Source: Cellvibrio zantedeschiae (GTDB lineage: Bacteria > Pseudomonadota > Gammaproteobacteria > Pseudomonadales > Cellvibrionaceae). Taken from it: DNA of 64,000 nt. Position numbers and translations under genes: made by a program. Under the pieces are notes generated by a model. The model was not told the DNA's origin. It saw nothing but the letters and a program-made list of their open reading frames with translations, and made no database searches. This document shows, piece by piece, positions 20,431 through 56,111 of this stretch (the first letter of the stretch is position 1; every line of letters starts with the position of its first letter). The stretch spans positions 186,001 through 250,000 of the forward strand of contig NZ_BMYZ01000001.1 of NCBI RefSeq assembly GCF_014652535.1, written 5' to 3'.

Positions 20431-20518
20431 GTCATCCTCGCGCAGCGGGGATCCACGGGGCTGGCGCTCCAGCTCTTTATGTTGCTTAAAAACTGGATCC
20501 CCGTTGCGCGAGGACGAC
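20431..20518. repeat. Dispersed inverted repeat, full copy
   Basis: The two 25-base arms (outer parts GTCATCCTCGCGCAGCGGGG and CCCCGTTGCGCGAGGACGAC) are near-perfect inverted complements, each carrying GGATCC. They flank about 38 bases of spacer. The left arm plus spacer (CACGGGGCTGG...CCAGCTCTT) recurs on the opposite strand at 56064-56111, showing a dispersed element of REP/BIME type. Confidence 0.75.
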
Positions 20519-47085: not shown

Positions 47086-47417
47086 TAGATTTATTTCGCC
47101 TGCTGGCGAGTCACTTTTCGTCCGGCAACTGCTCCTGCGTTGCTCTACCTCCTGCATCCAAGCAGTCGTGCTTGTCCACAAAATTGCAGGAGAGCAATTT
47201 TGCACAGCAAAGCTGCCCCAAAGGGGTGAAAGCCATGGATGGCTTTCATGAAAGAAAAGTAACCAAAAGAAAGGACACCCCTCTCGTTCCTGTTTCCTGT
47301 GCGCTTCAGAAAATTGCTGTCGTTCCGGTGCGACATCCATGTCGCATCGTCACTCAAACGCACATCCTGTGCGTTTGCCAACAATTTTCTTCCAGTGCTC
47401 GGGGAACTCGTAGGGGA
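47086..47417 (+). repeat. Structured dispersed element, copy A
   Basis: This element is shared with the minus strand at 55829-56041. It starts TAGATTTATTTCGCCTGC, continues TGGCGAGTCACTTTTCGT and ends in GTGCTCGGGGAAC. Its 3' half folds into a three-way junction: outer stem GAAAATTG (47309-47316) with CAATTTTC (47382-47389), hairpin GTGCGACA/TGTCGCAT (47328-47347) and hairpin AAACGCACA/TGTGCGTTT (47356-47376). Copy A carries an extra internal part with more hairpins, for example GAAAGCCAT/ATGGCTTTC. Frames through the repeat encode a look-alike peptide, but the structure is the better conserved feature. Confidence 0.75.
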
Positions 47418-47450
47418 TGGGAGGAATTGAGTAACAGTTTTGCTCTGCCT

Positions 47451-47843
47451 TTAGGTTGTACTCTTGCTGGCTATTTTTTCCAATAGCCAGCTTTTTGCTT
47501 TTTCAGTATCAGAAAATAATTTGCCGTAACCTATATTGCGATTAGCCAGAACCGTGCGGATAAATTCCGTGTGTTCAAACGTTTTGGGATTTTTATCGAC
47601 CCAAGCGATCACAAATTTTGATGTGATGCCTGCTTCCTCAAAAATCGTTTGGTGATTCCAGGCGTCCATTGTAGAAATTGCGCTCGACATATCCTGTTCG
47701 CCCAATACATAAAAACAATTATGTTGATTGCACGTGTCAGCAATTGTTCGCCACAGCATTACGGCGTTGTCATAGGTCGAGCTACCCGAGATAACCACAT
47801 GCAGATAATTGTCCTGCAGGGTTATGTCCATGGTGTTAGGCAT
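47451..47843 (-). CDS. SpoIIAA/STAS-like small protein
   Basis: ATG at 47843 is chosen because GGGAG lies 7 bases upstream; a start at 47864 is less supported. The 130-residue protein has an alpha/beta pattern like SpoIIAA-family proteins (ITLQDNYLHVVISGSSTYDN, then FVIAWVDKNPKTFEHTEFI and GYGKLFSDTEKAKSWLLEKI). No transmembrane segment is visible. Its stop lies about 30 bp from structured element copy A. A regulatory or membrane-associated role is possible, and no specific function is known. Confidence 0.68.
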   Translation of the reverse strand: MPNTMDITLQDNYLHVVISGSSTYDNAVMLWRTIADTCNQHNCFYVLGEQDMSSAISTMDAWNHQTIFEEAGITSKFVIAWVDKNPKTFEHTEFIRTVLANRNIGYGKLFSDTEKAKSWLLEKIASKSTT

Positions 47844-47918
47844 TAAGTCTCCCATGCGCCGCATTGCAGCGCGTTCAACAGTGTAAAAATCGAATTGATT
47901 TGATCCGCTAGTGGCGAA

Positions 47919-48599
47919 TTAGTTGCGCAAATCAGCAACAAGTTTTCCAGCGTCGAAAACTTCTTTTTCGTGGGCGGGTTCGCGCCAGGTTTCTATCAGT
48001 GCAGCTTCATACCAAGTTTTCATGGCGGGCAGGGCGAGCATGGTTTGCAGGTATTCACTTGCCGCTTTACCAAGTGGAAGTTGATAGGTTTGTGCACGGA
48101 AAACAACGGGTGCAAAAAAAGCATCTACGGCGCTGAAGTTTTCGCCTGCCAAAAATGGCCCACCAAATTTTTGCAAACCCTGGCTCCAAAGTTCGTCAAT
48201 GCGATCTATATCTTTTTGCAATGCAGGAGAAATATTGTGTAACGCAATGCGCACACCGCAACTCATTCCGCAATTATTGCGCAAGGTTTGAAAGCCCGAA
48301 TGCATTTCTGCTGCTGCAGAACGCGCCCAGGCACGCGCGGTTTTATCACTCGGCCATACATGGGGATGATGCTCTGCCAGGTATTCAATAATTGCCAGGG
48401 AATCCCAAATTACGCGGTCCCCATCTTGCAAACAAGGTACTTTGCCGCTGGGCGAAAAGCTACGGTATGCCTCCCATGCACCCTTTTCGGGGAAGGGGTG
48501 CAATTGTTCTGCGAAGGGAATTTCGAAGGCCGAAAGCACCAGCCAGGGGCGCAGTGACCAGGATGAATAATTTTTGTTAGCAATATGAAGTGTGTACAT
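47919..48599 (-). CDS. Glutathione S-transferase family protein
   Basis: ATG at 48599 with GGGAG upstream gives a normal N-terminus; the frame from 48626 adds nine residues. The 226-residue protein opens LHIANKNYSSWSLRPWLVLS, where SSW replaces the usual catalytic Ser/Cys/Tyr context of the YfcF/zeta-like branch. SGKVPCLQDGDRVIWDSLAI is the glutathione-binding segment. The helical domain has FLAGENFSAVDAFFAPVVFR, the conserved N-capping motif. Its substrate is unknown. It lies downstream of purK but is separated from it by a terminator. Confidence 0.85.
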   Translation of the reverse strand: MYTLHIANKNYSSWSLRPWLVLSAFEIPFAEQLHPFPEKGAWEAYRSFSPSGKVPCLQDGDRVIWDSLAIIEYLAEHHPHVWPSDKTARAWARSAAAEMHSGFQTLRNNCGMSCGVRIALHNISPALQKDIDRIDELWSQGLQKFGGPFLAGENFSAVDAFFAPVVFRAQTYQLPLGKAASEYLQTMLALPAMKTWYEAALIETWREPAHEKEVFDAGKLVADLRN

Positions 48600-48652
48600 C
48601 GTCGACTCCCAGTCATTAAAAAGCACTAAACAAAGCTAGTTGATAGGTAACC

Positions 48653-48685
48653 AAAATAAAAAAGCCAAGAGCTTGGTCTTGGCTT
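48653..48685 (-). terminator. Terminator of the purEK operon
   Basis: Stem AAGCCAAGA (48662-48670) pairs with TCTTGGCTT (48677-48685) with a 6-base loop; in the minus direction it is followed by a T-rich run. It lies between purK and the GST gene. Confidence 0.85.
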
Positions 48686-48698
48686 TAGTGTAGGGATC

Positions 48699-49781
48699 TT
48701 AATCCTGGTCTTCCAGCGCTTTGAGGCTCCATTCAATCGCCTCTTTATAGTATTGCTCTGGCAAGAGGTATTTGAGCTGTTGCAGGGTGCTGCGAATTTC
48801 ACCTAGATCCTTGCTTACCATATTGATGTGGCCAACTTTACGGCCCGGTAAAACGGCTTTTCCGTACCAATAGGTTTGCGCGACGGGCAGGTTGAGCCAG
48901 TTTGGATTGTATTCGGTGCCAATCAAATTGATCATCACGTTCTGGCCGAGGATTTGTGCTTTCGGGATAGCCATATCGGCAATTGCACGCAAATGATATT
49001 CAAACTGGCTGATGCTCGCGCCGGCTTGCGTCCAGTGACCACTGTTGTGTACGCGCGGGGCTAGTTCATTAATCATCAACTGGTCGCCAACGCGGAAACA
49101 TTCCATCGCCATAACTCCCACGTAATCCAATTCATTCAATAGTTTGCCCAGCATGTCTTCCGCTTGCGTTTGCAGCGCTTGCAGACGAGTTAAAGGCGCA
49201 ACTGAGGCGTACAAAATACCGTTTAAATGTAAATTGAGTGTAAGGGGATAAAACACGCATTGACCCGCACGGTTGCGCACACCAACGAGGGATACTTCTT
49301 CATCAAACGGAATAGCTTGCTCTGCAATCGCCTGACCTTGCCAATCCGCAGGAACTTCATCGTCTTGTGCGCGAATCCAGTATTGGCCTTTGCCATCGTA
49401 ACCACCAGTGCGGCGCTTAAGTAGCACTCGCTCACCCAACTGGTCACGTAACTCATTTGCGCTTATTTCATTAGCTACATTGCGCCAGGGCGCCGTGGAA
49501 AGGCCAAGGGAATCAATCAGTTCTTTTTGTGTTTTGCGATCCGCCAAGCGGCCAAATACCGGCTTATTAACAAAGTGTGCATGGTGCGCCAGGGTATTGG
49601 TCACGAGTGTATCCGGCCATTGCTCGCGCTCGGCAGTAACCAGATCATCAGCTTGCAGGGCAGGTGCGCTGCTTTCGTTAATATCTACCGGGCGTACATC
49701 CAGTGCTAAAGGCATGCCCGCATGCTTAAGCATGGCACCCAATTGACCTGCACCTAATACCCAAATTGGCTTACTGCTCAT
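48699..49781 (-). CDS. purK: N5-carboxyaminoimidazole ribonucleotide synthase
   Basis: The 360-residue ATP-grasp enzyme converts AIR, ATP and bicarbonate to N5-CAIR in purine synthesis. The N-terminal IWVLGAGQLGAMLKHAG loop, the ATP-grasp motifs LLKRRTGGYDGKGQYWI, IAEQAIPFDEEVSLVGVR and NELAPRVHNSGHWT are all present. It follows purE on the same strand and supplies its substrate. A REP-like repeat occupies the purE-purK gap. ATG at 49781 gives the expected length. Confidence 0.95.
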   Translation of the reverse strand: MSSKPIWVLGAGQLGAMLKHAGMPLALDVRPVDINESSAPALQADDLVTAEREQWPDTLVTNTLAHHAHFVNKPVFGRLADRKTQKELIDSLGLSTAPWRNVANEISANELRDQLGERVLLKRRTGGYDGKGQYWIRAQDDEVPADWQGQAIAEQAIPFDEEVSLVGVRNRAGQCVFYPLTLNLHLNGILYASVAPLTRLQALQTQAEDMLGKLLNELDYVGVMAMECFRVGDQLMINELAPRVHNSGHWTQAGASISQFEYHLRAIADMAIPKAQILGQNVMINLIGTEYNPNWLNLPVAQTYWYGKAVLPGRKVGHINMVSKDLGEIRSTLQQLKYLLPEQYYKEAIEWSLKALEDQD

Positions 49782-49836
49782 TCACTACCTACAAAAATTA
49801 ACTTTGGAAATATTTTAAAGGTTACTGCTTTCTAGT

Positions 49837-49915
49837 CCCCCTCTTTAGCAAAGAGGGGTTAGGGGAGATTTGATTTTCGTTCACTACCTCCCCAACCCCC
49901 TTTTATAAAAGGGGA
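49837..49915. repeat. REP/BIME-like inverted repeat between purE and purK
   Basis: The left half contains hairpin CCCCTCTTT/AAAGAGGGG (49838-49858) and the right half an 18-bp perfect palindrome CCCCTTTTA/TAAAAGGGG (49897-49914). The two halves are also inverted copies of each other (GGGGTTAGGGGAGAT with ACCTCCCCAACCCC), so one long hairpin is an alternative fold. Confidence 0.75.
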
Positions 49916-49926
49916 GCGCAGACTGC

Positions 49927-50418
49927 TTAATCCACGCTTGGATCAGGATTATCTAAAACGGCTTGTGTCTGGGTATAGCGGAAATCTTCAATGCGCGCCG
50001 CCAATTCAGCATCGTTCAGCGCCAGAATCTGACAGGCCAACAAGCCAGCATTAAAGGCACCCGCGGTGCCAATCGCCAAAGTGCCAACCGCAATGCCTTT
50101 TGGCATTTGAACGATAGAGAGCAAGCTATCCATACCGTTTAAGGCTTTACTTTGTACGGGAACGCCGAGCACTGGCAAACGCGTGTGAGCAGCAATCATC
50201 CCTGGCAAGTGAGCGGCACCACCGGCACCGGCAACTATAACGCCATAACCGTTGCTGACAGCCTCTTCAGCGAAGCTGGCCAGCTTCTGCGGAGTGCGGT
50301 GGGCAGAAACAACCTCGGTATGGTACTCCACACCTAATTTCTGCAGGATTTCAACAGCAGCTTGCATGGTCGCCCAATCACTTTTGGAACCCATCACAAC
50401 GGCAACTTTAGTGCTCAT
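49927..50418 (-). CDS. purE: N5-CAIR mutase
   Basis: ATG at 50418 gives the standard 163-residue protein; an extension to 50472 is rejected. Class I PurE motifs are visible: [26 protein letters not shown] (with the catalytic His) and [20 protein letters not shown]. It rearranges N5-CAIR to CAIR, the next step after PurK. The downstream gene is purK, with a 145-bp gap that includes a REP-like repeat. Confidence 0.96.
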
Positions 50419-50524
50419 AGCATTGTCTCGAACGAAAAATAACCAATGGAAAAAAGGCGCGCATAGTATCACATACTGGGCTACAAGCTAAAATTCGGAA
50501 GGAAAATTCATCAATAAGAGGGGC

Positions 50525-51694
50525 TTATTGGGGTGATGGCGCTGGAGTTGACGATGCCTGTTGAGATGAATCGACATCCGGCAATGCAACTGCAGGCGCT
50601 GATGTTTGCTTGCTGATAGAACTGGAGGAAGGCCGCTGTTCTCGGCTAGCGGATTCAACCCGAGGTTTGGTTTGTGCTTCTGCATCCACCACCTGAAAAC
50701 GCAAAATCCCAATAATCTGATTCGCTTCGGTCACTACCTGAATTTGCCAGTCGCCTTTAGCATCTGCGGGGAAATTGGTTTTGTGCGTCCAGGTTTGGTA
50801 GCCCTGGTCGTTGCCGCCGCTGATGTTCAGGGCAATTTTGTCGAACTTCTTACCCTTGTGAATCCACTGGTGATAAATACGTTCACGCAATCCGCGTGGT
50901 GCGTGTATAGCGGTGTAGGCGTAAATTCCTGCATGTAATTGTGCGCTGGTGATTGTTTTGAATTGCTGTTTGGGGGCGCGATTGCGGTCGTCAATGTGAT
51001 CGGTGATGGCGACCTTGGTTAGCCAGAGCGATGCCGGTGGAATCCATGGGCGAACTAAAATACCGAATCCACCAGCGCATAACATTAAAGACACTACAGC
51101 TATAGTACGCTTCCACCACACCACCGACATACTGCGAACTAAACCCGGGCCTGTTAGCAGCACGGCAATACCCAGCGACCACAAATAACTTTGCGGTGTA
51201 GGCAAATGGAAAATAAGTGGCAGTGCGGTTAAGAGCGCTGCAAACAGCGTAATGCCGTGAAAGCAGTAATACAGCCAGCGACGTGCCGCCAGCCAGTGGT
51301 AATAAATTGGGTCGATAATTGAGACGAGCGCTGCAGCAATTAATACGGACGTAAAGAAAACTTGTCCGGTATTCCATGCGGTGGTGATAAAGAAAAACGG
51401 AATGACAAAAAACAAACTCTCCTGATGCACCAGCTGATTCACGTATCGCAATACAACCGGCGGCACTGTTATACCAAACCAATGCGAGATTCCCTTGCGC
51501 AATAAATTTTCCATCGCGAGCCAAACCCAACTTGCCAGCATTAACACTGAAATTATTTGTGCAAATTGTTCCTGCTTTCGCTCCACTAAAAGAAAGCTGG
51601 CCACGCCCGATACAAACCCAAACAAAGGAATAATCCAGGGCCTGCGTTCAGCAATTTTTAGGGTTCGCCTGATCAGCTTTTTGATAACTGCCAT
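50525..51694 (-). CDS. DUF5924/DUF2914 membrane protein
   Basis: The 389-residue protein has about seven hydrophobic segments in residues 18-225. The soluble C-terminal part (about 230-350) fits DUF2914: ITSAQLHAGIYAYTAIHAPRG, YHQWIHKGKKFDKIALNISG and GDWQIQVVTEANQIIGILRF. The last 40 residues are Ser/Pro/Gln-rich and probably disordered. The N-terminal domain matches the DUF5924 family, common in gammaproteobacteria, function unknown. It converges with nothing obvious and is separated by 106 bp from purE on the same strand. Confidence 0.82.
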   Translation of the reverse strand: MAVIKKLIRRTLKIAERRPWIIPLFGFVSGVASFLLVERKQEQFAQIISVLMLASWVWLAMENLLRKGISHWFGITVPPVVLRYVNQLVHQESLFFVIPFFFITTAWNTGQVFFTSVLIAAALVSIIDPIYYHWLAARRWLYYCFHGITLFAALLTALPLIFHLPTPQSYLWSLGIAVLLTGPGLVRSMSVVWWKRTIAVVSLMLCAGGFGILVRPWIPPASLWLTKVAITDHIDDRNRAPKQQFKTITSAQLHAGIYAYTAIHAPRGLRERIYHQWIHKGKKFDKIALNISGGNDQGYQTWTHKTNFPADAKGDWQIQVVTEANQIIGILRFQVVDAEAQTKPRVESASREQRPSSSSISKQTSAPAVALPDVDSSQQASSTPAPSPQ

Positions 51695-51732
51695 GATGTT
51701 TTGTCTTTAACTTTTCCCTAACCTTGATGTAA

Positions 51733-52653
51733 TTAATTGGCCGAGCTCACACTTGGTTTCAGGATTTCGATCATCCAATTCATAAATGCCTGAACGCGTT
51801 TTGGTAAATGGCGGCGATTCGCATAAATCAATGAAACCGGCATGGGCGCCGAGCGATAATCCGGTAAAACCTCGATAAGTTGCCCGCTTTGTAAATACGG
51901 CTTTGCCGTTGCGCCATTTTCTGGAATTTGAATAATACCGAGCCCTGCCAAACACGCGCTTAGATAGGCCTCCGCATTATTCACGATTAACGCACCTTCC
52001 ATATCGATGTATTGAGTGACAGATGTTAGTGGGTCCACGTACTCGAATCCGTACGATTTACCACCAAGCACCGAAACATAGTGGACCAATTTATGGCGGG
52101 CAAGATCTTCAAGTGTTTGTGGAACGCCGTAAGTTTCAATGTAGCTCGGCGATACGCAATTGATGAGTTGATATTCGCCAATCGGGCGAGCCACCAAACT
52201 CGAATCAAGCAAGTTGCCGACACGTACCACGCAATCAAATCCTTCTCGCACAACATCTACCCGGCGATCTGTGCTGCTCAGTTCAATTTCCAAATGCGGA
52301 TGTTCGCGTAAAAACTGTGGGAGCGCAGGGATGACCAAGCCCCGCGCCATGGCTGTGGGCATGTCCACGCGCAAGCGTCCGCTCAACTGGTTTTGCTGAT
52401 TGTTGAAGAGGGTTTTGAGTTCATCGAAGTCGGCAAGTAAATCTTTGCTGCGCTCGTAAAACGCCTGACCATCGTGAGTCATCTGCACGCGGCGTGTGGT
52501 GCGGTGTAGCAAGCGTGTCCCCAACATAGATTCCAACTGCTGTACGGCGCTGGAAACATTGGCTTTAGCTATGCCCAAACTATCTGCAGCCTCGGTAAAA
52601 CTCGCTAGTTCAGCAACGCGCAAATAAATCTGTATTGCATCCAACTGATTCAT
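51733..52653 (-). CDS. LysR-family transcriptional regulator
   Basis: The 306-residue protein has the LysR winged helix (residues 6-65: IYLRVAELASFTEAADSLGI, then NVSSAVQQLESMLGTRLL) and an effector-binding domain with RLRVDMPTAMARGLVIPALP. It is of the CrgA/DmlR-like branch common next to oxidoreductase genes. It is divergent from an SDR gene across 193 bp, so the SDR is its likely target, with an unknown inducer. Confidence 0.9.
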   Translation of the reverse strand: MNQLDAIQIYLRVAELASFTEAADSLGIAKANVSSAVQQLESMLGTRLLHRTTRRVQMTHDGQAFYERSKDLLADFDELKTLFNNQQNQLSGRLRVDMPTAMARGLVIPALPQFLREHPHLEIELSSTDRRVDVVREGFDCVVRVGNLLDSSLVARPIGEYQLINCVSPSYIETYGVPQTLEDLARHKLVHYVSVLGGKSYGFEYVDPLTSVTQYIDMEGALIVNNAEAYLSACLAGLGIIQIPENGATAKPYLQSGQLIEVLPDYRSAPMPVSLIYANRRHLPKRVQAFMNWMIEILKPSVSSAN

Positions 52654-52846
52654 AGGTCAGCCCTATTGTTCCAATTTTATGAACAGTAAATTCAAAATTA
52701 GTGTCTTTATCCAGAATTTCAAGATTAATAGACTGGCAACCATCAAGCAATAAGCTTGAAAAACTTAAGGTGTGTTGGATGTTTGTCTCGCGGATATATC
52801 AACACTCTCCTTTTGAATCACTGGCTTTAATCATTGGAGATACGTT

Positions 52847-53605
52847 ATGAATCATAAAATCGCAATCGTAACCGGCGCTAGCCGCGGTCTTGGTAGAAAT
52901 GCAGCACTGCGTTTAGCAAGCAGGGGCGTTGACATCATCATCACTTATCACAGCAAACGTGATGAAGCCGAGAAGGTCGTTGCCGAGATTGAGGCGGCGG
53001 GCGCTAAAGCAGCGGCGCTCCAGTTGGACGTTTCACAAAGCAAAAGCTTCACTCAATTTGCTGTAGGTGTGAAAGCAATTTTGCAATCAAAATGGCAGCG
53101 CAATAATTTTGATTATTTGGTCAATAACGCAGGGACCGGAATCAACATTCCCTTCATTGAAACCAGTGAAGAACAGTTTGACCAAATGATGAATGTGCAC
53201 TTGAAAGGTGTTTATTTTCTTACGCAAAAACTCGTGGGACTTATGGCAGACGGAGGCAGCATTCTCAATATTTCCAGCGGGCTGGCGCGCTTTAGTTTCC
53301 CGGGTTATTCAGCCTATGCCGTAATGAAAGGCGCTGTTGAAGTTTTAAGTAGATATCTTGCCAAAGAATTAGGTGCACGCGGCATCAGGGTTAATACGCT
53401 TGCACCTGGCGCCATAGCAACAGACTTTGGGGGTGGCGCCGTGCGCGATAATCAGGAGTTGAACCAACATATAGCATCGCTTACGGCCTTAGGGCGTGTT
53501 GGTTTACCGGATGACATTGGCGGTGTAATTGCGTCTATGTTGTCTGATGACAACCGCTGGGTCAACGGACAGCGAATTGAAGCCGCAGGTGGAATATTTT
53601 TGTAA
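52847..53605 (+). CDS. Short-chain dehydrogenase/reductase
   Basis: The 252-residue enzyme has the NAD(P) motif TGASRGLG (residues 9-16), NNAG, and the catalytic Ser-Tyr-Lys arrangement (SSGLARFSFPGYSAYAVMKGA). Basic residues after the second strand (YHSKRDEAEK) favour NADPH. It reduces or oxidises an unknown carbonyl compound. It starts after GGAG with normal spacing. Divergence from the LysR gene suggests inducible expression. Confidence 0.9.
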   Translation: MNHKIAIVTGASRGLGRNAALRLASRGVDIIITYHSKRDEAEKVVAEIEAAGAKAAALQLDVSQSKSFTQFAVGVKAILQSKWQRNNFDYLVNNAGTGINIPFIETSEEQFDQMMNVHLKGVYFLTQKLVGLMADGGSILNISSGLARFSFPGYSAYAVMKGAVEVLSRYLAKELGARGIRVNTLAPGAIATDFGGGAVRDNQELNQHIASLTALGRVGLPDDIGGVIASMLSDDNRWVNGQRIEAAGGIFL

Positions 53606-53613
53606 CACGCGAT

Positions 53614-53645
53614 GCCCACTGAAAAAATTCAGTGGGCGATTTTTA
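53614..53645. terminator. Terminator between SDR and apbE genes
   Basis: Stem GCCCACTGAA / TTCAGTGGGC with loop AAAA is followed by T-rich sequence on the plus strand. It separates convergent genes. Confidence 0.85.
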
Positions 53646-54677
53646 TTATTGGTCTTGTTTGGCGTCTTCCAGTTTTACACTGGTTAGTTTTTCCAACGCA
53701 GAAGATTTCTTTTCAATTAATTGTTCGCCCTCCTGGTCTACAAACAAAGCGGCAATGCCATGTTCGTTGGCAAGCTGTATGCCCACATCGCTGCCCACGC
53801 ATAAAAGTGTTGTAGACCAGGCATCCGCAAGTGCCGGGTCTGCCATAAAAGCGCTGGCCATTGCAGTCTTGTGCTCAATCGGTTTGCCGGTGCGACCATC
53901 AAGAATGTGGCTAAAACGTTTGCCATTGCTGTCAAAGTAATGGTGATAGGTTCCCGATGGCATGAGTGATACAGGTTCGCCCGTTGCGAATATTGCTACC
54001 TTTTCTACTTTGCGTTCGGTTGAAATAGGTTTTTCCATAGCGATTCGCCACGGGCTACCATCGGCTTTTTTCCCGCGAACTTTCATTTCACCACCGATCT
54101 CAACAATGTAACTGGTGGCGCCGTGTTTTTCTAAAATATCTGCCAGCCTGCCCACGCTGTAGCCTTGGCCAATAGACGATAAATCTACGCGCAAATTAGG
54201 TAATGTTTTTTGTAGGTGTGTTGCGTCTACAGTGATGAGTTTATCCATACCGACGAGCTGCAAAGTTTGTTGTAATACTTCATCGCTCGGCAAATTAAAC
54301 ACATTTTTTTTGAATCCCCACAAATCAAATAAAGGTTTGATTGTTAAATCGTAACAGCCTTTGCTGGCTTTGCTGATGGCCCGTGCTTGCTCCACCAGTT
54401 TTACGATTTCTTCGTTGACTTCATGAGGTTCAGTATCCAATTGCGCGTTAAATAATTCGATGGTGGAGTCTTTGCGGTAATTGGAGATAGAAGCATCAAT
54501 ACGCTTCAACTCATCAGTCACTTCTTTTGCAACCAATGCTTGGTCTTCCGGCTTGGGCAGTAAGGCGGTGAGGTGATAAGTCGTGCCCTGCGCAAAGCCT
54601 TCAATTTTGATAGGCTCAGGTGTTTTAGTGCAGGAGGCGAGAAGGCCAGCGAAAGCGAGCAAAAAGATTTTACGCAT
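53646..54677 (-). CDS. apbE: FAD:protein FMN transferase, lipoprotein
   Basis: ATG at 54677 gives a lipoprotein signal (LLAFAGLLASC, Cys about 15). The 343-residue protein has the ApbE fold: GTTYHLTA, SNYRKDSTIELFN, DLSSIGQGYSVGRLADIL and SHILDGRTGKPIEH. The metal-binding Asp and Thr region is near ADAWSTTLLCVG. The enzyme attaches FMN to Thr residues of Nqr or Rnf subunits in the periplasm. No nqr or rnf genes are in the window, so its target lies elsewhere. ApbE usually neighbours nqr, and isolation here is mildly unusual. Confidence 0.92.
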   Translation of the reverse strand: MRKIFLLAFAGLLASCTKTPEPIKIEGFAQGTTYHLTALLPKPEDQALVAKEVTDELKRIDASISNYRKDSTIELFNAQLDTEPHEVNEEIVKLVEQARAISKASKGCYDLTIKPLFDLWGFKKNVFNLPSDEVLQQTLQLVGMDKLITVDATHLQKTLPNLRVDLSSIGQGYSVGRLADILEKHGATSYIVEIGGEMKVRGKKADGSPWRIAMEKPISTERKVEKVAIFATGEPVSLMPSGTYHHYFDSNGKRFSHILDGRTGKPIEHKTAMASAFMADPALADAWSTTLLCVGSDVGIQLANEHGIAALFVDQEGEQLIEKKSSALEKLTSVKLEDAKQDQ

Positions 54678-54848
54678 TGTTGAATCCAAGCTAGATGAGA
54701 TTGGTTCGCATTATAGCTTGGCTGATCAGTGAAGGCGTTTTAAATCGTGCAACCAATGTGAATAATTAAAAGCCAGATAAATTTTGTGGTTTTATAAGGT
54801 GGGAGCGAGCGGATTGGCAATACCAACCCGCGAGCAAGAAATAAAAAA

Positions 54849-55757
54849 TTAAACTGGATCTGTCTCGCCGCCAAAGGCTGCGAGCAAAGCGGTTATAAAG
54901 TTTTTCAGTTCGCCGCTCATAATTGCAAAATCTGCATCGAATTGTTCAGCTTTGCTTTCTGGATTGCGCTCGTTGGCTTTTTCGCTGATGACGTCATCAA
55001 ATTTCAAACGTTTAACAGCGAGCTGGTCGTCGAGTACGCAGTGAATAGATTCTTTCCAGGTCACCGCAAGTTTGCTTACAAACATGCCGCTGTTAAGGTG
55101 GCTGAGCATTTCATCGGCTGTTAAGTCTTGTTTTTTGCAGCGGATCACGCGTTCATCTTTACTCGCGTGCAATTCGCATTCTTCACCCAACTCAAAATCA
55201 TTGGTCAGCTTGCCGGTTTGTACCCAGTGGGTCATAACTTGGGTGGGAATATTTTTGGCGCTGATGGGAATACAGCGCAAACTACCTAAAGCTTCGCGCA
55301 ATTTGCTGAGCAAATCTTCTGCGCGTTTTGCAGACGATGAGTTAACCACAATTAATTTTTCTTGCGGGGCGATATAGGCAAAATCCAGCGATGATTTTGC
55401 AAAGGCTTTCGGCATCAATGAAAAAATAATTTCGTCTTTCAATGTCTGCTTTTCTTTGCGGCCAACACTGCGCGATTCGGCTTCGCTAATCGCCAAAGCT
55501 TTTTCTTCCAGGTGTTCGTTCACTACGGCGGCGGGCAGGATTTTTTCCTGCTTTTTTGCGCAAATCATGATGTAGCCGTTGGTCACGTGAATAAATTCAC
55601 TGCCATGGCGCCCTAATGGCTCGATAAAACCATAGCGTAAAGGGTCGAGGCTACCGCAGGGATTAAAGCAGTGTGCTTCGAGTGCTTCGTTGAGTTGTTC
55701 GGGGGTATGAGTCCATTCTTCGGTAAGGCGGTATAAGCGGAGGTTTTTGAACCACAT
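54849..55757 (-). CDS. rdgC: Recombination-associated protein RdgC
   Basis: ATG at 55757 gives the typical start MWFKNLRLYRLTEEWTHTPE and a normal 302-residue length. The longer open frame to 56024 runs into a dispersed repeat and is rejected. RdgC forms a ring-shaped dimer on double-stranded DNA and limits RecA activity. Conserved segments include GSLDPLRYGFIEPLGRHG, the SVGRKEKQTLKDEII region and HWVQTGKLTNDFELGEECEL. Structured repeat copy B lies about 70 bp upstream and probably includes or borders its promoter. Confidence 0.93.
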   Translation of the reverse strand: MWFKNLRLYRLTEEWTHTPEQLNEALEAHCFNPCGSLDPLRYGFIEPLGRHGSEFIHVTNGYIMICAKKQEKILPAAVVNEHLEEKALAISEAESRSVGRKEKQTLKDEIIFSLMPKAFAKSSLDFAYIAPQEKLIVVNSSSAKRAEDLLSKLREALGSLRCIPISAKNIPTQVMTHWVQTGKLTNDFELGEECELHASKDERVIRCKKQDLTADEMLSHLNSGMFVSKLAVTWKESIHCVLDDQLAVKRLKFDDVISEKANERNPESKAEQFDADFAIMSGELKNFITALLAAFGGETDPV

Positions 55758-55828
55758 TGAATTAAATCCAGAATAAATTCGATCTAAAAATTGTTTTTGC
55801 CTTAAAAGCTGCGAGTGGCACCAGCGGG

Positions 55829-56041
55829 GCCCCCTGCGCGTTCCCCGAGCATTGGAAGAAAATTGCCGTAAAACAAACAGGACGTTTGTTTTAGTGACTA
55901 CGCGACAAGGATGTCGCGTCGGAACGACGGCAATTTTCTGAAACGCGCAGGAAATGGGAACGAGCGGGGTGTCTTTTCTTTTGGTTACTTTTCGTTGGAC
56001 AAGCAACGAAAAGTGACTCGCCAAGAGGCGAAATAAATCTA
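55829..56041 (-). repeat. Structured dispersed element, copy B
   Basis: This is the inverted-orientation relative of 47086-47417. Its three-way junction is better formed: perfect 12-bp outer stem (55858-55869 with 55927-55938, sequence GAAAATTGCCGT). Inside are hairpin AAACAAAC/GTTTGTTT (55871-55891) and hairpin ACGCGACA/TGTCGCGT (55900-55919). A further long hairpin lies at 55984-56017 (arms GTTACTTTTCGTTG and CAACGAAAAGTGAC), replaced in copy A by a longer insertion. Confidence 0.78.
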
Positions 56042-56063: not shown

Positions 56064-56111
56064 AAGAGCTGGGTGGCCAGCCCCGTGGATCCCCGCTTAC
56101 GCGAGGATGAC
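56064..56111 (-). repeat. Dispersed inverted repeat, half copy
   Basis: Read on the minus strand, GTCATCCTCGCGTAAGCGGG leads into GATCCACGGGGCTGG and then CCAGCTCTT, matching the left arm and spacer at 20431-20480 with few changes. The right arm is absent. It lies 23 bp beyond structured element copy B. Confidence 0.75.

Follow-up and report, generated by a model that had tools for sequence, protein, structure and literature searches.

Two hairpin-rich sequences in inverted orientation, copy A at 47086-47417 and copy B at 55829-56041, lie in the window analyzed here, a 64,000-nucleotide (nt) stretch of the Cellvibrio zantedeschiae genome (G000:C1:186001-250000; 4.27 Mb in 12 contigs), and raise the question of what kind of element changes its letters while keeping its fold, and at which level, RNA, DNA or peptide, it is read. 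We find that both belong, as diverged copies, to a dispersed structured repeat, of which 30 copies were examined in this genome, and that copy B matches RF01731, the TwoAYGGAY RNA family, with copy A marginally under its cut-off. At a confidence just short of evenly balanced, we propose a non-autonomous TwoAYGGAY repeat, similar to repetitive extragenic palindromes (REPs) and bacterial interspersed mosaic elements (BIMEs), whose transcripts may serve as two-site docks for CsrA/RsmA. Other genomes and loci are given by handles of the form G012 and L323.

An inverted pair with a branched fold

The original prediction described a dispersed element whose two copies share their order and ends, and both are borne out: 47251-47416 and 55831-55996 form an inverted repeat of 166 nt (84% complementary), and a second inverted block joins 47086-47121 to 56006-56041 (36 nt, 94%). 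The pairing-preserving differences that it reported are all present, the arms of a junction hairpin reading AAACGCAC/GTGCGTTT in one copy and AAACAAAC/GTTTGTTT in the other, with T-A changed to C-G in the second hairpin. The TCC that it placed in both loops is GGA read on the opposite strand, the perfect outer stem of copy B that it put at 12 bp folds as 13 bp, and copy A owes its extra hairpins to the insertion of two modules, M1 and M2, which also occur apart from the core element. The parts of the two copies are as follows.

47086-47417, minus strand (GGA strand): copy A, whole element; RF01731 match of 42.8 bits at 47321-47377, minus strand
55829-56041, plus strand (GGA strand): copy B, whole element; RF01731 match of 47.8 bits at 55822-55978, plus strand
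55832-55969, plus strand: P1 of copy B, the outer stem, from the fold; its 5' arm is 55832-55846 and its 3' arm stops at 55969
55857-55939, plus strand: P3 stem of copy B, 13 bp (55857-55869 with 55927-55939), enclosing the junction of two GGA hairpins
55870-55892, plus strand: P4 hairpin of copy B, loop AGGAC, GGA at 55880-55882, from the fold
55900-55919, plus strand: P5 hairpin of copy B, ACAAGGATGT, GGA at 55909-55911, from the fold
55983-56018, plus strand: P6 long hairpin of copy B, GGTTACTTTTCGTTG/CAACGAAAAGTGACT, resembling P6 in the elements of other families
56019-56030, plus strand: P7 of copy B, a small terminal hairpin, formed by CGCC/GGCG when folded as DNA
47355-47377, minus strand: P4 hairpin of copy A, GGA at 47365-47367 on the minus strand
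47329-47346, minus strand: P5 hairpin of copy A, ACATGGATGT, GGA at 47336-47338 on the minus strand
47123-47169, minus strand: M1, inside P6 of copy A, GGA-tipped hairpins on the core strand
47178-47250, plus strand: M2, inside P6 of copy A, GGA at 47189-47191 and 47237-47239, opposite to the core

Along the GGA strand the order is P1, an internal loop, P3, a junction with P4 and P5, a linker (GGGTGTCTTTCTTTTGG or a close variant), P6 and P7, giving a branched unit of 200-330 bp. The P7 bases of copy B pair differently when the plus strand is folded as RNA. Compared with dinucleotide shuffles, z is -7.3 for the GGA strand of copy B, -8.3 for its opposite strand and -6.9 for copy A, with no shuffle as stable. 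By eye, and uncounted, the P1 arms also co-vary among copies (GTTCC/GGAAC, GGCTTC/GAAGCC, GGCTTTG/CAAAGCC).

Covariation across 30 copies

A genome-wide blastn search with copy B returned 43 matching pieces (best E 2.3e-116 for itself, 6.1e-80 for the next copy), and 30 copies, gathered from blastn and RF01731 matches in the same genome as the original prediction had proposed, were aligned over the core (alignment A1, 108 columns) and scored against the P3/P4/P5 structure of 32 pairs. Paired cells made up 93.6% of 958 (83.3% in shuffles), 18 of the 32 pairs showed a two-sided change (9.6), two-sided cells numbered 99 (28.1) and the covariation score was 0.305 (0.119), none of the 500 shuffles being as high on any of these measures, although kinship of the copies inflates such shuffle tests. 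Further standard pair types gave a less clear result (33 against 28.9; 20 of 500 as high). Shifting the partner by 1-3 columns, a control that preserves relatedness but favors any structure taken from one sequence, lowered the paired cells to 37-46%, and RNAalifold, unaided, predicted 34 pairs, 20 of them with a two-sided change. The structured element with covarying stems is therefore upheld well beyond the two copies from which it was proposed.

The original prediction also took covariation as a hallmark of conserved structure, and here the structure stands, but selection at the RNA level does not follow. The arms change jointly with hardly any intermediates (summed from the per-pair table, helices 2 and 3 have 64 two-sided, 2 one-sided and 16 unpaired cells), and a DNA-level process would give the same pattern; template switching, or hairpin DNA recognized by a protein, would also yield joint arm changes.

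RF01731 as a dispersed repeat

In cmscan, copy B scores above the RF01731 cut-off of 43 bits and copy A 0.2 bits under it, and the genome as a whole holds 29 matches at E <= 1, of which 12 are over cut-off. Within the genus, 14 of 21 genomes have a match at E <= 0.01 (five over cut-off). Matches also occur in genomes of another family of the same order, possibly Pseudomonadaceae. A sample of the class gave matches in 19 of 369 genomes at E <= 1e-4 (16 over cut-off) and a sample of the phylum in 32 of 398 (28 over cut-off), all 32 from the same class, while a control set of 14 well-known genomes gave none every time. Since only six or seven candidates were scored in each sample of more than 40 genomes, copy counts from these samples are lower bounds. 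Twelve positive genomes, searched again at E <= 0.001, had 1, 3, 5, 6, 12, 14, 15, 16, 20, 27, 30 and 40 matches, counts that include matches under the cut-off, and the coordinates place matches in close head-to-head pairs in several of them. Given this multi-copy occurrence in unrelated families, RF01731 is a dispersed repeat in Gammaproteobacteria, where it behaves like a REP-like repeat. This is new here, our literature search having found no account of RF01731 as a dispersed repeat.

By eye, several other families have elements in which the core leads into a similar linker and P6, and a compact subtype (G206, G311 and distant Cellvibrio) has no linker and P6 of this kind. A search of a plasmid collection with copy B returned two partial matches, both to linker and P6: one in an Aeromonas caviae record of 4.9 Mb filed as a plasmid, beside an RF01731 match of 41.5 bits (under cut-off), and one in a Pseudoalteromonas record beside a match of 51.3 bits. 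In both, the linker/P6 match lies directly downstream of the RF01731 match, an independent sign of one composite element. The same search of a phage collection and a pattern scan of viral contigs for the element gave no match; the pattern scan of genome contigs gave seven stretches in three assemblies, probably the already counted G016, G013 and G012. The element of G655, from the same order, matched one plasmid and two phage records. In a Pseudomonas phage record (L351, MT121968.1), a truncated G655-type element is followed by an annotated transposase gene, which we take to be IS3-like.

RF01731 has been described as an RNA family without known function, for which CsrA binding was proposed from loop motifs (PMC4333381), and as "probably RNA, probably not cis-regulatory", from the human gut, gamma-Proteobacteria and Clostridiales (PMC2864571); its Rfam label is Cis-reg. 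Our element shares with it two neighboring GGA-loop hairpins under a longer closing stem, and differs in being a many-copy dispersed repeat with P6 and nested modules. The first loop (P4) is AGGAN, not AYGGAY, and P5 has NGGA within a closing A-U pair, which reads AUGGAU in copy A. A stem with tandem G-A pairs is given as a trait of RF01731 (PMC4333381), and GA faces GA at columns 52-53/78-79 in 26 of our 30 rows, although this may not be the same stem; L004, L028 and L032 have Watson-Crick pairs there and L018 a one-sided change.

GGA loops and their likeness to CsrA sites

GGA is present in P5 in all 30 copies and in P4 in 27, the base preceding the P5 GGA being variable. P5 reads ACANGGATGT in 22 of the 30, and in nine it is ACARGGATGT, with the purine of the consensus RUACARGGAUGU obtained for CsrA by systematic evolution of ligands by exponential enrichment (SELEX; PMC7652899). 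For a wider view we assembled 175 elements, comprising the 30 and 145 more, drawn from the matches listed in 13 other genomes (G106 28, G178 15, G289 15, G045 14, G311 13 of 40, G013 11, G016 11, G206 10, G012 10, G029 8 of 27, G261 7 of 20, G007 2 of 8, G014 1 of 4, and none from G166, G386, G182 or G238). In a scan for NGA-loop hairpins 18-45 nt apart with five Watson-Crick pairs, in which GGA carried a bonus when pairs were chosen, all 134 elements with a qualifying pair had a GGA spacing of 27-30 nt (27 nt in 19, 28 nt in 51, 29 nt in 63 and 30 nt in one), and the loops were GGA/GGA in 112, GGA/CGA in 18, CGA/GGA in three and AGA/GGA in one. In 41 elements no pair was found, among them every one of the 23 from G206 and G311 and both from G007, all of the compact subtype, whose second stem does not reach the five pairs required. 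GGA in apical loops at this spacing is compatible with binding by a CsrA dimer, for which a review puts the distance between sites at 10-63 nt, best above 18 (PMC7652899).

The enrichment is confined to one strand: per 150 nt, the elements of our genome carry 5.83 GGA in sense (3.61 in shuffles) and 1.07 in antisense (1.08). Sense-strand GGA is likewise above shuffles in G012, G013, G016, G106, G045, G206, G311 and G029. A published motif scan matched CsrA sites in both RF01731 hairpins (PMC4333381), and RF01731 shares the Rfam clan label CL00106 with RsmW and RsmY. The sponge small RNAs CsrB, RsmY, RsmZ and RsmW likewise have several GGA-tipped hairpins on one strand, and our spacing suits dimer binding as theirs does; they are single genes, whereas the element is dispersed and long-stemmed.

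The one match to CsrB itself (RF00018) in our genome, at 26.2 bits and E 3.7e-5 with a cut-off of 71, was taken as noise, because the same search matched five of the 14 controls and the stretch resembles coding sequence. A Qrr-like match at 53555-53646 of the window is weak (24.9 bits against a cut-off of 50) and probably due to chance.

The proposal of a CsrA/RsmA dock builds on computed features, namely structure, family match, copy number, GGA strand, spacing, location, modules and CsrA genes in the same genomes; transcription, CsrA binding and the mobility mechanism are inferences. In this model, the repeat would spread as a foldable unit, presumably helped by a trans-acting enzyme, and would nest smaller hairpin modules. 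Read-through transcription may then copy the GGA strand, and the paired hairpins could dock a CsrA/RsmA dimer at two sites. If so, the copies would enlarge the cell's supply of CsrA sites or act as marks on the 3' ends of their host mRNAs.

Several observations weigh against this model. GGA is replaced by CGA in one hairpin of 21 of the 134 elements, recurrently in unrelated genomes (for example L010 and L025), and sense-strand GGA is not clearly above shuffles in G178, G289, G261 and the single G014 element. The stems are long, P4 having nine pairs and P5 7-8 in the 30-copy alignment, where the hairpins selected by SELEX mostly have four or fewer, a preference and not an absolute rule (PMC7652899). 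Copy B is antisense to both of its flanking genes, and co-directional elements as a whole have no strand preference (43 sense, 38 antisense). M2 can run opposite to the core, as it does in copy A. A CsrA gene occurs in all 16 tested genomes bearing the element, which carries little weight, since CsrA is common in Gammaproteobacteria. The joint arm changes count on the DNA side, and so do the mismatches: selection on an RNA strand predicts an excess of G-U, contrary to the 23 G-U and 24 A-C mismatches found in the GGA hairpins by a symmetric scan. Over whole folds, G-U pairs made up 496 of 8993 in sense and 422 of 8855 in antisense (p = 0.08); those of Cellvibrio (G000, G012, G013 and G016) lean antisense.

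Taken over all hairpins, the symmetric scan gave 58 G-U and 43 A-C mismatches, and six of eight families, in our own grouping, lean sense in whole-fold G-U. The RNAalifold structure of the 30 rows has 16 G-U and 3 A-C, RNAalifold itself preferring G-U. The three versions of the mismatch test thus disagree and leave no clear signature of an RNA strand; a control on tRNAs (8 G-U among 73 pairs in sense, 0 among 64 in antisense) comprised only three tRNAs, too few to rely on. The sense fold is the more stable in 135 of the 175 elements (Wilcoxon p = 1.5e-17), a difference that loop energies alone can produce. It is this mixture of RNA and DNA evidence that keeps the CsrA dock a little below an even call and places a DNA-level explanation next after it.

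A possible DNA-level repeat

According to that explanation, the repeat is a selfish hairpin: as it is replicated or transposed, a transposase or some other DNA-binding protein recognizes the GGA tips in single-stranded DNA hairpins, and any RNA is incidental; we consider this a serious possibility, held at well under half of our confidence. Equal G-U and A-C mismatches and joint arm changes are what it expects, as are head-to-head pairs and modules that occur apart from the core. The hairpins of both modules, M1 with about 47 nt and M2 with about 75, are GGA-tipped, and their stems vary from copy to copy; by eye, the modules lie within P6 or next to P3 in some copies and also apart from the core, for example at L323, L324, L326-L329 and L331-L333. 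At L323, M1 is inserted into a second dispersed palindrome, GTCATCCTCGCG..GCGGGGATCCA, which occurs in the window beside copy B (56064-56097) and at 20444-20477 and resembles CGTC-type or dRS3 REPs. Mobile double-hairpin elements of mitochondria are small hairpin pairs that likewise insert into other hairpins; those here differ in their bacterial host and their GGA tips.

Placement agrees with such a repeat. A rough codon-score gene caller placed 137 of the 175 elements (38 remained unplaced, and paired elements were counted separately): 53 lay between convergent genes, 43 were co-directional in sense and 38 co-directional in antisense, three lay between divergent genes and none inside a called gene, counts given without a genomic expectation for all intergenic gaps. 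REPs mostly lie between unidirectional and convergent genes (PMC3733652), and intergenic repeats of Pseudomonas have a convergent bias with few divergent sites (PMC2718517). The placement of our elements, without orientation bias and nearly absent between divergent genes, is thus the REP pattern and lends no weight to strand-specific selection where an element inserts. Like REPs and BIMEs of the GTAG and CGTC superfamilies, the elements are dispersed, intergenic, biased to 3' ends and often in inverted pairs (PMC3733652); they differ in their branched folds of 200-330 bp, not 20-40 bp, in their GGA loops and in that no Y1 transposase was found nearby. By description only, not by sequence, we liken them to R178 (101 bp, internal 11-bp inverted repeats, 18 copies) and R200 (320 bp, 47 copies) of Pseudomonas fluorescens SBW25 (PMC2718517).

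What tells against a DNA-level reader is the want of a candidate enzyme and of a clean target duplication, together with loop letters and a spacing that fit CsrA sites closely. Y1-transposase genes (PF01797) are present in eight of eight genomes at 15 loci, and none of the 14 scanned (the other, L143, adjoins the scanned L132) has an RF01731 match at E <= 2 within about 1.5 kb, so mobilization by REP-associated tyrosine transposases (RAYTs) is rejected for the tested genomes. The only Y1-transposase (RAYT-like) match of our own genome, L137 (G000:C4, near 101399), is flanked by a palindrome of its own, GTAGGTACGATTAGCG.., unlike the element. By eye, the foot of the hairpin shows no obvious GTAG or CGTC tag, although no scan was aimed at one, and we saw no clean target duplication around the elements and no consistent one around M1 insertions.

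Copy A lies in a gap between two convergent genes. Of the 20 genomes with a match, six were read over 700 nt downstream of the neighboring gene: the element is present in G000 and G016 and absent from G014, G013 and G012, the G019 locus being too short to judge; no precise empty site was found at copy A, the flanks of relatives being too diverged. Copy B lies between genes that, from their protein sequences, we take to be an FKBP-type gene and rdgC. In close relatives an element lies upstream of rdgC in sense (G012, G014) or antisense (G016, G013), and by eye most other Cellvibrio genomes have the compact subtype there. Altogether, 19 of 21 Cellvibrio-group genomes carry an rdgC-upstream element by eye (L145-L165; missing in G009 and G004), 15 antisense and four sense to rdgC. 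An automatic rule detects it at 11 of the 21 loci and in 42 of 3000 control segments, and cmscan of 17 of the 21 gave seven RF01731 matches in five loci (E <= 3), one over cut-off. This gap, presumably fklB-rdgC, with its changing subtype and orientation, may be either an insertion hotspot or the site of a conserved need.

Hairpins at 3' ends and the peptide reading

It is improbable, though consistent with the placement, that the element is an ordinary REP-like 3'-end hairpin that blocks 3' exonucleases or aids termination, with GGA merely a stable loop. Its 53 convergent, 81 co-directional and three divergent sites among the 137, and very stable folds on both strands, would suit that role; loop letters kept beyond the needs of stability, on one strand only and at a fixed spacing, do not.

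The competing interpretation offered with the original prediction, a short peptide or coding repeat on the strand opposite GGA (VTKRKDTPL...RHPC...ARGTRRG), fails over 30 copies and is now scarcely credible. The frame is open in 23 of them and in our genome joins rdgC, with open frames around rdgC of 415 aa (G000) and 380 aa (G016), but of only 323, 322 and 316 aa in G012, G013 and G014. Across all columns, mean entropy at codon positions 1, 2 and 3 (0.44, 0.48, 0.54) has a mild third-position excess, which is due to paired columns only (0.43, 0.49, 0.65) and is absent from unpaired ones (0.46, 0.45, 0.42). Moreover, the translations show stops in five of 30 copies and, in two, a 1-nt loop deletion that shifts the frame. 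At 54849-56024, the frame opposite the GGA strand of copy B continues in frame into rdgC, so that a gene caller could add a false N-terminal extension to RdgC.

That the two copies are a chance similarity or a two-copy artefact, for which we found no point in favor, is refuted by the copy number (43 blastn pieces, the next copy at E 6.1e-80, and no shuffle of 500 reaching the covariation score) and has a negligible probability.

Implications

Covariation in palindromic repeats is not, by itself, proof of RNA function. A many-copy, REP-like RF01731 with a fixed two-site GGA geometry should be tested as a mobile decoy rather than as a single cis-regulator. Beyond the CsrA/RsmA dock that we prefer, it is a rather unlikely but consequential extension that a selfish repeat made CsrA/RsmA sites mobile, and that several unrelated small modules (M1, M2 and, in relatives, at least a third), each of which came to have GGA-tipped hairpins, together govern part of the cell's free CsrA. 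If this were true, changes in the copy number of such elements would retune a global regulator.

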